Assembly (NCBI GenBank): GCA_029938715.1
Contig: JAOZUK010000011.1
Location: 1-59,977, forward strand
Source of the DNA: Bacteroidales bacterium
Lineage (GTDB): Bacteria; Bacteroidota; Bacteroidia; Bacteroidales; GCA-2748055
Direction of reading: 5' to 3'
Length of the DNA stretch: 59,977 bases
The notes under the pieces are model-generated. The model was not told the origin of the DNA and made no database searches. It was given only the letters and a program-made list of their open reading frames with translations. Position 1 is the stretch's first letter. Each line of letters starts with the position of its first letter. The position numbers and the translations under genes were made by a program. Shown here one piece after another: positions 49,170-54,634 of this stretch.

Positions 49170-50297
49170 ATGAAAAATAATAGAACATTAATACAAAAAT
49201 CTATTGCAATTACTGCAATCAGTTTAATTGCAATCCTGGCTTTCGCTCAAACTGAAGGACAAAAAGGAAAATCCGGCAATCCATATGGGATATCGGCAGA
49301 AAAGATTCAATGGATGAAAGAAGCGACTCTCAAACAATTGAAAGGTTGTAGAGTTAAAGGGGCTGGTGATACATGGATTCATACTCCAGACGGAGTAGGT
49401 AATTATAAGTCTCTTTGGACAAGGGATTCTTACTATATGGTTGAGTATGCAGGTGACTTGATGGATCCGAATGAAATTAAAGCATCCATTTACTACTTGC
49501 TGAAGGGCCAACGTGATGATGGATGTATACCTGACAGGGTTAATGCTGCAGGTCAACCGGTTTACAGCCCAGGACCTCCAGGCAAACCTATCGCAGATAA
49601 TGCATTGGACAATGGCCCGTTTATGGCCATGCTAGTATGCACCTATGTTAATCAATATCAGGACGAAGCACTTTTTCGAGAAGTTGAGCTGCAACTGCGC
49701 AGAGGACTTGATCATACTACTGTAAAGGAAAGCGGATTAGTTTACAACAGTCCTGAAAATCCACAGTGTGTTTATGGGTTTACAGATATTGTAAGAAAAA
49801 CCGGAAACCTTCTTTTTTCATCATTGCTTTACTACAAGGCCAATCTTGATATGTACCAACTCTGCAAAAAGTATGAATGTGGCAACCCAGCGATCTACAA
49901 AAGAAGATATGAATACGTTCGACAAAGTATTAATAAATTATGGAACGAAGACAATGGAATGTTTTGGGCTGCTGATATCGACTGCAAGCAAATAGATATT
50001 TGGGGAAGTGCCTACGCCGTAGAAGTAGGGATCACCAGTGAAGAACAGACCATGAGGATCACAACGTACTTGGTGGAGCATTACGACGAGACGGTAATGA
50101 ACGGACAGATCAGACACCTTACCCGTAGTGAGGGAACTTGGAACAATTTGTTTAAACCCAGCTTAGCCAAGGATATGCTGGAAAAAGTAATTACAGATTT
50201 TCAGGAAAATGGCATCAATGAGTGCATCAATGATGGATATGTTAAAGTACCAAATTTTGTTGTCAGTGCGACGAATGTATACGCCCTAACTCGTTAA
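49170..50297 (+). CDS. Exported six-hairpin ((alpha/alpha)6) glycosidase-like protein
   Basis: 375 residues. Signal peptide MKNNRTLIQKSIAITAISLI ... AFAQ; AAGGAG before the ATG at 49170 supports the start. The body looks like an (alpha/alpha)6 barrel: NYKSLWTRDSYYMVEYAGDL, ASIYYLLKGQRDDGCIPDRV, KPIADNALDNGPFMAMLVC, INKLWNEDNGMFWAADIDC, IDIWGSAYAVEVG and EGTWNNLFKPS. The WTRD and QRDDGCIPD acidic residues are in the places used by glucosidase/trehalase-like enzymes (GH15/37/63/65 group). It is somewhat short for these, so a subfamily with a reduced end is possible. The substrate is unknown. Next to the Rieske-TPP gene (convergent), 5 kb from the GH127 gene. Confidence 0.75.
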   Translation: MKNNRTLIQKSIAITAISLIAILAFAQTEGQKGKSGNPYGISAEKIQWMKEATLKQLKGCRVKGAGDTWIHTPDGVGNYKSLWTRDSYYMVEYAGDLMDPNEIKASIYYLLKGQRDDGCIPDRVNAAGQPVYSPGPPGKPIADNALDNGPFMAMLVCTYVNQYQDEALFREVELQLRRGLDHTTVKESGLVYNSPENPQCVYGFTDIVRKTGNLLFSSLLYYKANLDMYQLCKKYECGNPAIYKRRYEYVRQSINKLWNEDNGMFWAADIDCKQIDIWGSAYAVEVGITSEEQTMRITTYLVEHYDETVMNGQIRHLTRSEGTWNNLFKPSLAKDMLEKVITDFQENGINECINDGYVKVPNFVVSATNVYALTR

Positions 50298-50329: not shown

Positions 50330-52276
50330 TTAGATCAGTTTCACATCTGCCTGCACCTCCAGCAGTGCAGGTCCTTGTGCCGCAAACAGTTGCATAAATG
50401 CAGTTTCTAATTCTTCTTTCTTCGATACTTTCAAACCCACACCCCCGCAACTGACGGCATATGCGGCAAAGTCAGGATTTACCAGATCTGTAGCCCATTT
50501 ATCCCAACCTCCCGCTCTCTGTTCTTTAGTGATCTTTCCAAGTTCGTTATTGTTGAGCACAATTACTTTAACGGGCATTTTATATTTCACCAGTGTAGTA
50601 AATTCGGCCAAATATTGGCAAAGACCGCCATCTCCTGCAACAACTACTATTGGTCTGCTATCACCTACGGCTGCCCAGGCTCCCATTGAAGCAGGTAAGG
50701 CAAATCCAATTGAACCGAGATAACCTGACATTAAGAAGCTATGATTTTTTGATTCAAAATACCTGCCAAACGAATAAGCGTTATTTCCCACATCCACACA
50801 CATTACGGCATTTTCAGGCGCCAGGCGTGTTAAGGCTTCAAACACAGCAATGGAGCTTACTCCATTTCCTCTCTCTTCCGATAATCTCTTGAGTTTTTCA
50901 TTTCTCCAAATGGCCCACCTTTCAGATATTTCAATTTCCTGATTGACTTTACTAAAAGTCAAATCTTCGTTTGAATTATTTATCAAGCTTATTGTCCTTG
51001 AAATTTCTCCATAAACAGCTACATCTATCTTATGAAATTTCGCAATGGCAAGAGGGTCAAAGTCAATTTGAATGATTGGTTTTTTAGGAGTGATACCTGT
51101 ATGGTTAGAGAAAGAAGCTCCAATCACAAGTAGCAAATCAGCCTCGTTCATAAAGTAGGACGCGACAGGTGTACCGCTTCTGCCCAGAACTCCACAACCC
51201 AATCTGTGATGGTCTGATATTAGCCCTTTTCCTTTGAAGGTTGTCATGACGGGGCAATTGAGTTTTTCGGCAAACCCGATGATTTCATTCATATGAAATC
51301 TAGCCCCGTGCCCTACAATGATTACAGGTCTTTGAGCAGATTTAATCCTTTCAATGGCCAGGTTTATGCTCTCTTCCGGTGGTGCTATCGTAAGTGGTGT
51401 GATTCTTCCTTCGGGTGTCTGAGCTTCTGCCCCATCAGCTTCTAAAACTTGTACCTGATCCGGAAAAGTTAAATGAGAAACATCTCTTCTTAAAATAGCA
51501 TGTTTAATGGCCAGAGACATCAGTTCTGCATGATTACTTTGATGCTCCACGCGTTGATTAAACTCAGTAACGGTTTGAAAAGCTCTTACTAAATCAACTT
51601 CTTGAAAATTACCCGTTCCAACTACTTGTGTAGCTACCTGACCTGTGAGTGCCAGGATGGGAGCTCTGTCTACTTTGGCATCCCACAGACCCGTGAACAT
51701 ATTAGTGCTTCCGGGGCCTGCAATAGCAAAACAGGCTGCAGGTTTACCTGTCAATTTACCATAAGCAGAAGCGGCAAAAGAAGCAGCTCCTTCATGTCGG
51801 ATTCCAATGAATTTTAGTTTTCCTTTCTCCTCTTGCCGGCGAAAAGCATCGGCAAGCCCTAAGTTTGAGTGCCCTACCATCCCAAACACACGATCCACGC
51901 CCCAGTTCACCATGGTCTCTGCCATAACATCGGTTACAGTGGGCTTATGGGATGGCTCTTCTTCCAACCCAACATAAACAGCATCCCCTTCAACTTTTAA
52001 GGGGTAGGTTTCTAAACCGTCATCAAAATCATCTGAACTACCACCATGGGGGCAAAAATCCCAACCATGCCATGGACATCTTAACAAACCATTTTCAATG
52101 GACCCTTCGCCCAACGGACCACCCTGATGAGGACATCTATTTTCCATTGCCGTCCACTCTCCTTTCCAATGGGTAAGACAGAGATCTTTGTGACCTGCGG
52201 TAACCGTCATTACACGATTTTCAGCCAGTTCATTTTTATTTGTGAGGACTTGGTGCCAAATCATTTGCTTGCTCAT
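50330..52276 (-). CDS. Rieske [2Fe-2S]-thiamine pyrophosphate enzyme fusion
   Basis: 648 residues in one frame. Residues about 1-105 are a Rieske ferredoxin-like domain: MENRCPHQGGPLGEG and LLRCPWHGWDFCPHGG, with ligands Cys48, His50, Cys67, His70. From about 112 a complete TPP enzyme follows (acetolactate synthase/pyruvate oxidase class): TVTDVMAETMVNWGVDRVFG, RHEGAASFAASAYGKLTG with the catalytic Glu162, IAGPGSTNMFTGLWDAK, the central domain RPVIIVGHGARFHMNE ... IIQIDFDPLAI, and the TPP/Mg site VVVAGDGGLCQYLAEFTTLV ... IVLNNNELGKI. No regulatory subunit gene is near. The TPP part presumably decarboxylates a 2-oxo acid and the Rieske part accepts electrons; both are inferred. No frameshift lies between the domains. 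Confidence 0.9.
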   Translation of the reverse strand: MSKQMIWHQVLTNKNELAENRVMTVTAGHKDLCLTHWKGEWTAMENRCPHQGGPLGEGSIENGLLRCPWHGWDFCPHGGSSDDFDDGLETYPLKVEGDAVYVGLEEEPSHKPTVTDVMAETMVNWGVDRVFGMVGHSNLGLADAFRRQEEKGKLKFIGIRHEGAASFAASAYGKLTGKPAACFAIAGPGSTNMFTGLWDAKVDRAPILALTGQVATQVVGTGNFQEVDLVRAFQTVTEFNQRVEHQSNHAELMSLAIKHAILRRDVSHLTFPDQVQVLEADGAEAQTPEGRITPLTIAPPEESINLAIERIKSAQRPVIIVGHGARFHMNEIIGFAEKLNCPVMTTFKGKGLISDHHRLGCGVLGRSGTPVASYFMNEADLLLVIGASFSNHTGITPKKPIIQIDFDPLAIAKFHKIDVAVYGEISRTISLINNSNEDLTFSKVNQEIEISERWAIWRNEKLKRLSEERGNGVSSIAVFEALTRLAPENAVMCVDVGNNAYSFGRYFESKNHSFLMSGYLGSIGFALPASMGAWAAVGDSRPIVVVAGDGGLCQYLAEFTTLVKYKMPVKVIVLNNNELGKITKEQRAGGWDKWATDLVNPDFAAYAVSCGGVGLKVSKKEELETAFMQLFAAQGPALLEVQADVKLI

Positions 52277-52457: not shown

Positions 52458-52465
52458 TAATTTTG
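52458..52465 (+). promoter_or_regulatory. Possible -7 element of the propeller/kinase operon
   Basis: TAATTTTG fits TAnnTTTG, 37 bp before the ATG at 52502 and 33 bp after the 11-bp tandem repeat. No TTG at the usual distance was found. Confidence 0.35.
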
Positions 52466-52501
52466 TTGACGGATACTCATCAAACTTTGGAGGAACTGAA
52501 A

Positions 52502-54634
52502 ATGAAAACACCAACCGTATGTAAATTGCTCGCCATGCTGGTAATACTGGCAATAGGAATTCAATGCCCCTTACTGGCCCAGAATCCTGAAGCACTATTT
52601 CAACAGGGTTTAATCAAAGAGGAGGGCGAAGGATCCCTTCAGGAAGCCATTGATATTTACATCAAAGTTGCTTCTGATGAGTCTGTTGAACGACCCCTGC
52701 AAGCAAATGCCCTGCTTCACATCGGGCTCTGCTATGAGAAGCTGGGAAGGACGGAGGCCCGAAAGACCTATCAATATATTATTCAGAACTACCCGGACCA
52801 GCCAGAAACCGTAAAAGTGGCCAGGGAAAAGCTAGCTCTGCTCTCACAAACTGAAATCAACGAGACTGAAAAGTCAGGAGAGTTAAACATCCAAAAAGTC
52901 TGGGAAGTTCCGGATTATCTGCTTGGGGAAGTTTCACCTGATGGAAAATACATTTCATATTGTGTCTGGAGTACTGGTGATTTGGCAATTTATGAGCTGG
53001 CTAACGGAAAGACCCGCCGTCTGACCAATAATGACAGCTCGGATAGAAGCCAGGTATATGCGGAATACTCAAGATGGTCAGCCGATGGAAAGCAGATTGT
53101 TTATACCTGGCGGAATGGTATGGAATATGAATTACGCACGATCGGACTGGATGGTTCTGAGCCTAAAGTGCTCTACACCAATAAAGAGGCAAGATATATT
53201 GCCGCCTGCGATTGGTCCCCCGATGGCAAGCAAATCCTTGCATGTATGGACTATAAGGACAATAAGATCGAGACAGCAGGATTGATTAATATATCTGATG
53301 GATCGATGCAGGTACTAAAAACTCTTGAAGAGGGGTCGGGAGAGGGGTCGGGAATGATGTGCTTTTCAAAAAATGGTAAGTCCATTATTTACGACCGTCA
53401 GCAGGAAAGCAAGACAAGCATACGGGATATTTATATGCTTCCCCTGGACGGAGGTGCTGAGATAGCGCTGGTAAAGCATCCTGCCAATGATCTTTTCCTG
53501 GGACTTGCTCCAGATGGAGAAAGCATATTGTTTTCCAGTGACCGTGATGGCAGTACAGGATTATATCTAACTCGTATTGAAAATGGTCTGCCCAGTGGGG
53601 ATCCTCACCTCCTAAAATCTGACATAGGACAAATTGAGGTCCTGGGCTTTAAGCCCTCAGGCGCTTTTTACTATACTACTGCAAAAGAACTCAGTGATGT
53701 ATATATGGCAAAGCTGGATGCCTCGGGATACGCTCATACACCATTGGAAAAGATGGAAACAAGGTTCCAGGGAAACAACAGACTACCAGCCTACTCACCT
53801 GATGGAACCCACCTTGCATATATAAGTGTGATGCAACCCTCCATTGTTAACTTTAACAGAGGGGGAGGAAATATGTTGGTCATTCGTTCCCTTGAAACGA
53901 AGCAGGAACAAAGAATCATACCTGAACTCCATCAAATAGGCTACCCCCATTGGTCACCAGACAGCAAACAAATCATGGTAGTGGACTTTACCGAAAATAA
54001 TACCATGGGCTTACACCAGATAGATATCCAGAGCGGTCAGGTGAAGACCATTCTTTCTCCTGATGAAGGATTAAGCCTTTTTGGGAGGCATGAATATTCA
54101 CCTGATGGAGCTACACTCTATTATGGTAAAATGGATATGAAAACCAGGGTGAGAAAAGTGATGTCGAGGGATCTGGAATCTGGTGCTGAAAAAACACTCT
54201 ATGAATCAAAAAAATTTCTGCAAATAACACTGTCACCTGATGGTCTCTGGCTAGCTGTAAACTCAAGAGATCCATCAAAACAAGGGGATGCAATGTTTCT
54301 TCTACCCACTTCTGGAGGGGAGGTCAAAAATCTTATTACATCCAAAGAAGGTAAAGATTTCTACATTGGTTTCCATGGTTTTTGTACCTGGACTAATGAT
54401 GGAAAGTACATTCTATTCCAGAGAATAGATGAACATGCGGATGGATATGAGGCGTATATATGCAGGGTACCTGCCTCGGGTGGAGAGATAGAGAAAATTG
54501 GCGTAGCAATTCCAGGAGAAAGAGCTTCCAGTCTTAGCATGGCTCCTGATGGCCGAAGTATTGCATTCTCATTCTATACCTTGCCCCTATCCCCTGCAGT
54601 ATGGGTGATGGAAAACTTTTTACCCTCTGACTAA
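52502..54634 (+). CDS. Exported TPR plus TolB/PD40-type beta-propeller protein
   Basis: 710 residues. Signal peptide MKTPTVCKLLAMLVILAIGI ... LLAQ. TPR-like helices cover about 25-110 (LQEAIDIYIKVASDESVE; ALLHIGLCYEKLGRTEARK; YIIQNYPDQPETVKVAREKL). From about 140 a TolB/PD40 propeller runs to the end: GEVSPDGKYISYCVWSTGD, SRWSADGKQIVYTWRNG, CDWSPDGKQILACMDYKDN, PAYSPDGTHLAYISVM, PHWSPDSKQIMVVDF, LSMAPDGRSIAFSFYT. GGAGG ahead of the ATG at 52502 decides the start over the TTG at 52463. The histidine kinase gene follows 7 bp after the stop, so the protein may be a binding partner or sensor for it; that is inference. Confidence 0.85.
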   Translation: MKTPTVCKLLAMLVILAIGIQCPLLAQNPEALFQQGLIKEEGEGSLQEAIDIYIKVASDESVERPLQANALLHIGLCYEKLGRTEARKTYQYIIQNYPDQPETVKVAREKLALLSQTEINETEKSGELNIQKVWEVPDYLLGEVSPDGKYISYCVWSTGDLAIYELANGKTRRLTNNDSSDRSQVYAEYSRWSADGKQIVYTWRNGMEYELRTIGLDGSEPKVLYTNKEARYIAACDWSPDGKQILACMDYKDNKIETAGLINISDGSMQVLKTLEEGSGEGSGMMCFSKNGKSIIYDRQQESKTSIRDIYMLPLDGGAEIALVKHPANDLFLGLAPDGESILFSSDRDGSTGLYLTRIENGLPSGDPHLLKSDIGQIEVLGFKPSGAFYYTTAKELSDVYMAKLDASGYAHTPLEKMETRFQGNNRLPAYSPDGTHLAYISVMQPSIVNFNRGGGNMLVIRSLETKQEQRIIPELHQIGYPHWSPDSKQIMVVDFTENNTMGLHQIDIQSGQVKTILSPDEGLSLFGRHEYSPDGATLYYGKMDMKTRVRKVMSRDLESGAEKTLYESKKFLQITLSPDGLWLAVNSRDPSKQGDAMFLLPTSGGEVKNLITSKEGKDFYIGFHGFCTWTNDGKYILFQRIDEHADGYEAYICRVPASGGEIEKIGVAIPGERASSLSMAPDGRSIAFSFYTLPLSPAVWVMENFLPSD

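Follow-up and report, generated by a model that had tools for sequence, protein, structure and literature searches.

The window analysed here, a 59,977-nucleotide stretch of a Bacteroidales genome, raises the question of what a Rieske iron-sulphur centre does when it is built into a thiamine pyrophosphate (TPP) enzyme, and where its electrons would go. The first-pass annotation had read a Rieske site and a TPP enzyme in one frame, and had proposed that such an enzyme could pass electrons from a 2-oxo acid directly. The gene has the following layout:

50330..52276, minus strand: Rieske-TPP fusion gene, a single ORF with an ATG start, encoding 648 aa
52037..52249, minus strand: Rieske [2Fe-2S] domain, aa 10-80 (Pfam PF00355)
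51941..52036, minus strand: last part of the Rieske fold, followed by the linker, aa 81-112, the stretch between Pfam domains
51587..51940, minus strand: TPP_enzyme_N, aa 113-230, with catalytic Glu162 and F224-Q225 (Pfam)
50990..51364, minus strand: TPP_enzyme_M, aa 305-429, with a probable FAD site (Pfam and loop comparison)
50354..50794, minus strand: TPP_enzyme_C, aa 495-641, with GDG 548-550, N576, Lys581 and Glu585 (Pfam)

All four domains exceed their curated Pfam cut-offs (PF00355, E = 2.2e-15 and 56.8 bits against a cut-off of 20.3; TPP_enzyme_N, 2.6e-33; TPP_enzyme_M, 2.4e-34; TPP_enzyme_C, 4e-31), and the single 648-aa frame with both halves thus stands as the first-pass annotation had described it. 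An AlphaFold2 (AF2) model of the protein has a pLDDT of 91.4 and a pTM of 0.89; the linker region contains strands at residues 93-96 and 99-105 (mean pLDDT 75 for residues 81-90, 95 for 91-100 and 91 for 101-110), and pLDDT falls below 50 in the loop 217-223. The gene stands alone between a convergent ORF (49170-50297) and a divergent propeller ORF (52463-54634), and the ORF listing of the window gives no operon context around it. The convergent ORF has a weak, below-cut-off Pfam match to an MGH1-like glycoside hydrolase.

A chance join, a frameshift or an assembly artefact is ruled out, because complete plasmid records and many separate genomes carry both halves without a break. The same domain order recurs, Rieske included: in a scan of genome contigs, all of the best 80 of 189 relatives match from fusion residue 20 or earlier, and full-length fusions with 52-57% identity lie on plasmids of Halorubrum, Haloferax, Halorarius, Salinirubellus and Mycobacteroides abscessus. 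The other 25 of the best 30 (of 1648) plasmid records begin no earlier than query residue 106 and have identities of at most 37%, and these neighbours lacking a Rieske domain are mostly annotated as pyruvate oxidase (33-37% identity). Fusions occur in Bacteroidota, Pseudomonadota, Acidobacteriota, Cyanobacteriota, Calditrichota, Planctomycetota, Nitrospirota, Myxococcota, Thermodesulfobacteriota, Chlorobiota and KSB1. Within its own phylum the gene is uncommon, being present in 11 of the 392 genomes sampled; among 61 near genomes it is full-length in the window genome (G000) and in G003, G008 and G019, partial (residues 3-472) in G040 and represented by short pieces in G014, G022 and G024. Imperfect copies include one divided over two frames (L032), one carrying a single in-frame TGA (G148) and three cut at or near contig ends (L010, L045 and L066). 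Genes for DsrE, SRPBCC, mercury(II) reductase and TauE/SafE proteins, varying by record, lie near the fusion on the haloarchaeal plasmids L120-L123.

The fusion is widespread in bacteria and haloarchaea and often accompanied by further Rieske-fused redox proteins, and for this reason appears to be a real electron-transfer enzyme that has not previously been characterised. A search of the open-access literature, by titles and abstract openings, found no description of a Rieske-TPP fusion enzyme, and the five plasmid fusions carry only the annotation 'thiamine pyrophosphate-binding protein', which agrees with the initial impression that no such enzyme had been described. In the part of PMC6037941 that was available, Rieske and pyruvate oxidase are named as separate proteins.

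The residues singled out at first reading, the Rieske ligands Cys48, His50, Cys67 and His70 together with Glu162 and GDG of the TPP half, were correctly placed: none of them varies across the 69 aligned fusion rows, and neither does Asn576. That alignment was made without the five plasmid proteins, all of which retain the Rieske ligands and the catalytic Glu; in the four haloarchaeal plasmid fusions SDG replaces GDG and Asp replaces Asn576. The Rieske ligands are spaced Cys-x-His and Cys-x2-His within the local sequences CPHQGG and CPWHGW, and the sequence around them contains no extra disulphide cysteines of the bc1 type. Rieske proteins of bc1 type carry two such cysteines and ferredoxin-type proteins lack them, so by this absence the domain would be classed as ferredoxin-type rather than bc1-type. 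Its closest solved chains by sequence, which share the Cys-x-His and Cys-x2-His spacing, are the Rieske ferredoxins of aromatic oxygenases, 1vm9 (T4moC) and 2qpz (naphthalene dioxygenase system), which are stand-alone proteins serving oxygenases, unlike the fused domain here.

The TPP half was compared with E. coli PoxB, IlvI, IlvB, Gcl and Oxc and with two Bacillota proteins annotated as pyruvate oxidase. By alignment, fusion Glu162 corresponds to PoxB Glu50, the FQE segment containing PoxB Gln113 is kept (FQD in some rows) and Glu585, the equivalent of PoxB Glu469, is retained. The position of PoxB Phe465, which we take to be important at the contact between thiamine diphosphate (ThDP) and FAD, is occupied by Lys581 in all 69 fusion rows and in the five plasmid copies, and by Met in a Metabacillus protein annotated as pyruvate oxidase. 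A glycine loop of the middle domain, presumably a marker of FAD binding, reads GVLGRSG in the fusion, GMTGLIG in PoxB and GMLGMHG in IlvI and IlvB; it is thus shared with pyruvate oxidases (POX), PoxB and acetohydroxyacid synthases (AHAS), and is missing from the oxalyl-CoA decarboxylase Oxc, which has a gap there. In the match to 3ey9 the fusion ends opposite residue 531 of PoxB's 572, and a PoxB-like C-terminal tail is not present.

Which branch of the TPP enzymes does this half belong to? A tree built on 48 rows of the TPP half groups the 40 sampled fusions in a single clade (support 100/100), and a branch with support 98/96 sets them, together with four references from the POX side (PoxB, a TPP protein of Pelagibacterium and two proteins annotated as pyruvate oxidase), apart from Oxc, IlvB, IlvI and Gcl. 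The tree is rooted at its midpoint only, several references sit on very long branches and the program cautions against spurious joins; the fusion clade looks to be placed beside the pyruvate oxidases, a position that rests on long branches. Within the clade, the haloarchaeal fusions group with two rows from Acidobacteriota and one from an unclassified bacterium (100/99), a nesting which suggests that the gene moved between domains of life. The top NCBIfam score is to pyruvate oxidase PRK08611 (403.6 bits, below the equivalog cut-off of 742), the score to acetolactate synthase TIGR00118 is lower (311.8 bits, below its cut-off of 538.35), and none of the 25 listed families out of 58 reaches its NCBIfam cut-off. 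PoxB is also the top sequence match in the PDB (239.9 bits). By these sequence measures the fusion is kin to pyruvate oxidase within the TPP oxidase/decarboxylase superfamily, and by curated cut-off not a member of that family. A housekeeping acetolactate synthase is ruled out, since the fusion scores under the TIGR00118 cut-off and the window genome holds a separate biosynthetic enzyme, L002 (698 against 538.35).

A fold search with the AF2 model returned two tied matches, PoxB (3eya; Z = 42.1, 514 residues aligned, 2.5 Å) and the ThDP-dependent HKA synthase (8xod; Z = 42.2, 499 residues aligned, 2.1 Å, 30% identity); the matches span aa 109-648 and so barely cover the Rieske part. HKA synthase (8xod and 8x3x, BbmA) shares the fold over the TPP half only, and its chemistry is carboligation. 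This tie, together with the replacement of PoxB Phe465 by Lys581 and the fact that several FAD-containing relatives are carboligases, raises the alternative that the fusion is an AHAS- or HKA-synthase-like carboligase or lyase with a structural FAD, its Rieske cluster acting as a redox or oxygen switch that forms no electron path. We consider this unlikely: the AHAS score is lower than that for POX, the window genome already has L002 for acetolactate synthesis, and three recurrent partners of the fusion are redox proteins, two with their own Rieske domain and one FMN-reductase-like.

The kinship and the loop bear on the path of the electrons within the enzyme. With the FAD-type loop retained and pyruvate oxidases as its closest kin, the enzyme probably has a flavin between ThDP and the Rieske cluster, and the early proposal that electrons pass directly is in that respect probably wrong. 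A direct path would mean that no flavin redox step occurs and that the cluster itself oxidises the ThDP enamine in single-electron steps, as in pyruvate:ferredoxin oxidoreductase (PFOR). PFOR likewise oxidises 2-oxo acids with TPP; its in-enzyme iron-sulphur centre is [4Fe-4S], not Rieske, and no PFOR Pfam family was found in the fusion, whose six matched Pfam families are three of TPP_enzyme and three of Rieske. The loss of the aromatic ThDP-FAD contact residue in every aligned row would suit such a mechanism, which fits the word 'directly'; retention of the FAD-type loop and a closest kinship to flavoenzymes make it a quite improbable account.

Our preferred reading, to which we assign a probability of about one half, is that the fusion belongs to the pyruvate-oxidase branch as a 2-oxo-acid oxidase that depends on ThDP and probably on FAD, and that it sends electrons out through its own Rieske domain into a Rieske-based chain. 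Pyruvate would be the likeliest substrate because of the kinship to pyruvate oxidases. A 2-oxo acid would be decarboxylated at ThDP to give an enamine, oxidation of which would deliver two electrons to FAD, and the fused, low-potential [2Fe-2S] cluster would then remove these one by one. The electrons would thereby bypass both O2, the acceptor in the lactobacillal POX route, and quinone, reached through a C-terminal membrane anchor in the PoxB route. Their destination would be a Rieske-based chain: in some hosts this may include a heme membrane protein of ferric-reductase type that bears a Rieske domain itself, and in most sampled hosts the fusion is accompanied by a Rieske-fused, glutamate-synthase-like FMN/3Fe-4S protein. 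The data establish the fusion, its conservation, its grouping as one clade among the sampled rows, its closest kin and its partners; we infer the FAD, the substrate, the direction of electron flow and the contact with partners. With POX of the Lactobacillus/Bacillus type and with PoxB the fusion shares the three TPP domains, the catalytic Glu, FQE, the Glu585 equivalent and the FAD-type loop; it differs in its added N-terminal Rieske, in Lys581 for Phe, in having no PoxB-like tail, in scores below the NCBIfam cut-offs and in an identity to POX of 37% at best among the plasmid matches listed. The reading is weakened by Lys581, by these NCBIfam scores and by the structural tie with HKA synthase, and also because FAD is judged by loop sequence, the partners are not specific to the fusion and the placement beside POX lies on long branches.

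If electrons leave through the Rieske domain, which genes could receive them? Flanks were surveyed at 85 loci (80 contigs and 5 plasmids), and four gene families, c1 to c4, recur. The c1 protein (~537 aa) carries an N-terminal Rieske domain, a Glu_synthase FMN domain and a C-x5-C-x4-C motif like the 3Fe-4S motif of glutamate synthase; the member scanned matched no glutaminase family in Pfam. The c4 protein (~343 aa) joins a ferric-reductase transmembrane domain to a C-terminal Rieske domain (FRD-Rieske), and its His86, His98, His168 and His181 are invariant in 16 rows. The c3 protein (~262 aa), usually with one hydrophobic segment, adjoins c4 just behind it or overlaps it, and both form one 666-aa frame at L070:4263-6263; the c3 member scanned matched no Pfam family. 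By eye, c3 shows the recurrent Cys/His motif GEIxDxKCxxGxMKPGxGKxHRxCAxxC. The c2 protein (~266 aa) is DUF5996-like: 11 of 28 members match PF19459 (best 1.2e-45), and for DUF5996 no paper was found in the open-access literature. The c2 member that was folded, L084:697-1494, is one of those with no PF19459 match (AF2 pLDDT 94.1); its fold matches are only weak, partial and type-III-secretion-chaperone-like (Z of 6.0 or less), and may reflect a common arrangement.

By locus, c1 flanks the fusion at 37 of the 85, c2 at 32, c4 and c3 at 25 each, a Na/H exchanger at 19 and an FMN-reductase/flavodoxin-family gene at 10; at least one of c1-c4 is present at 58 loci and none at 27, a few of which lie on short contigs. 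L043 and L049 were left out of the c1 counts, their matches being to the fusion's own Rieske part. All four families and the fusion form a same-strand run of five genes, c1-c4-c3-c2-fusion, at L132:5629-12367. A malic enzyme adjoins the fusion in L025, which would point to pyruvate, at that single locus only. On a Vibrio fortis plasmid (L139:5680-7230), a c1 relative ~64% identical in the FMN part has zf-CDGSH stretches in place of the Rieske domain; given this replacement, members of the c1 family seem in general to begin with an iron-sulphur carrier whose type can be exchanged.

Association was also counted across genomes, with c1, c2 and c4 scored in what are apparently the same 392 genomes as the fusion (same handles and totals), only the best 3-6 first-look candidates being scored per genome. 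A c1 match was taken as Rieske-bearing if it started at position 8 or earlier, and 11 of 61 listed genomes were left out for a later start. On this basis c1 occurs in 50 genomes, c2 in 38, c4 in 12 and the fusion in 11. The fusion is accompanied by c1 in 10 of its 11 genomes, against 50 of 392 overall (p = 5e-9), and by genus in 8 of 9 against 26 of 174 (p = 7e-7; both by Fisher's test, relatedness ignored). It occurs with c2 in 7 of 11 genomes and with c4 in 5 of 11, against c4 in 12 of 392. The 392-genome sample supersedes an earlier test on 35 picked genomes, in which c2 was found in 9 of 15 with the fusion and 0 of 20 without. Likewise, c1 is present in 11 of 12 c4 genomes and 28 of 38 c2 genomes. 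Because most genomes with c1 (40 of 50), c2 (31 of 38) or c4 (7 of 12) have no fusion, c1 is the hub of the gene set and the fusion is one spoke.

Fusion and c1 lie on different contigs in G000, G235, G243, G299, G314 and G416. On plasmids, all three records with a c1 match from residue 8 (Halorubrum, Halorarius and Salinirubellus) bear the fusion; on the Haloferax and Mycobacteroides fusion plasmids c1 was found neither among the best 15 c1 matches listed nor in the fetched flanks. The window genome has c1 at G000:C746 and c2 at G000:C628, and c4 was not found in its 945 contigs (97% complete). FRD-Rieske as the electron outlet in all hosts is therefore ruled out, c4 being present in only 5 of 11 fusion genomes and not found in that of the window. 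This result, the solitary position of the fusion gene in the window, the two fusion plasmids on which c1 was not found and the 27 loci with none of c1-c4 also count against the preferred reading. In the window genome, the gene for an MTTB family protein (L128:14340-15764; PF06253, 3.1e-52) lies at a distance of ~4 kb from c1.

A more elaborate version of the electron-export reading joins these partners into an NAD(P)H-free circuit, in which 2-oxo-acid oxidation by the fusion would drive reductive amination on the Rieske-glutamate synthase protein c1, or the reverse, by Rieske-to-Rieske transfer. FRD-Rieske would then serve as an optional quinone outlet, and the DUF5996-like protein would help in binding or assembly; we regard this circuit as speculative and rather unlikely. 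That the Rieske is instead an inlet, through which a reductase or the quinone pool feeds a reductive or oxygen-consuming TPP reaction, is very unlikely: its nearest solved kin are oxygenase ferredoxins fed by reductases and an FMN-reductase/flavodoxin-family gene flanks 10 of the 85 loci, but we know of no TPP enzyme of this fold that needs electron input, and a scan of 20 neighbour representatives found no oxygenase domain.

Our best reading of the sequences is thus that electrons taken from a 2-oxo acid would be exported by way of the Rieske centre. What is new here is the fusion's company of other Rieske-fused redox proteins; ferric-reductase-domain proteins joined to Rieske as an electron-transfer domain were already described as model M4 (PMC3591440), which resembles c4 and which, in the part of that paper available, comes with no mention of a TPP enzyme or of the set formed by c1-c4 and the fusion.

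If the preferred reading is right, the fusion would represent a third electron-disposal route for ThDP/flavin oxidases, beside O2 and direct quinone reduction. It would also, to our knowledge, belong to the first gene set to combine several unrelated proteins that all bear a Rieske domain. Entries in bacteria and haloarchaea now called 'thiamine pyrophosphate-binding protein', 'glutamate synthase-related protein' or DUF5996 would thereby gain a testable function.
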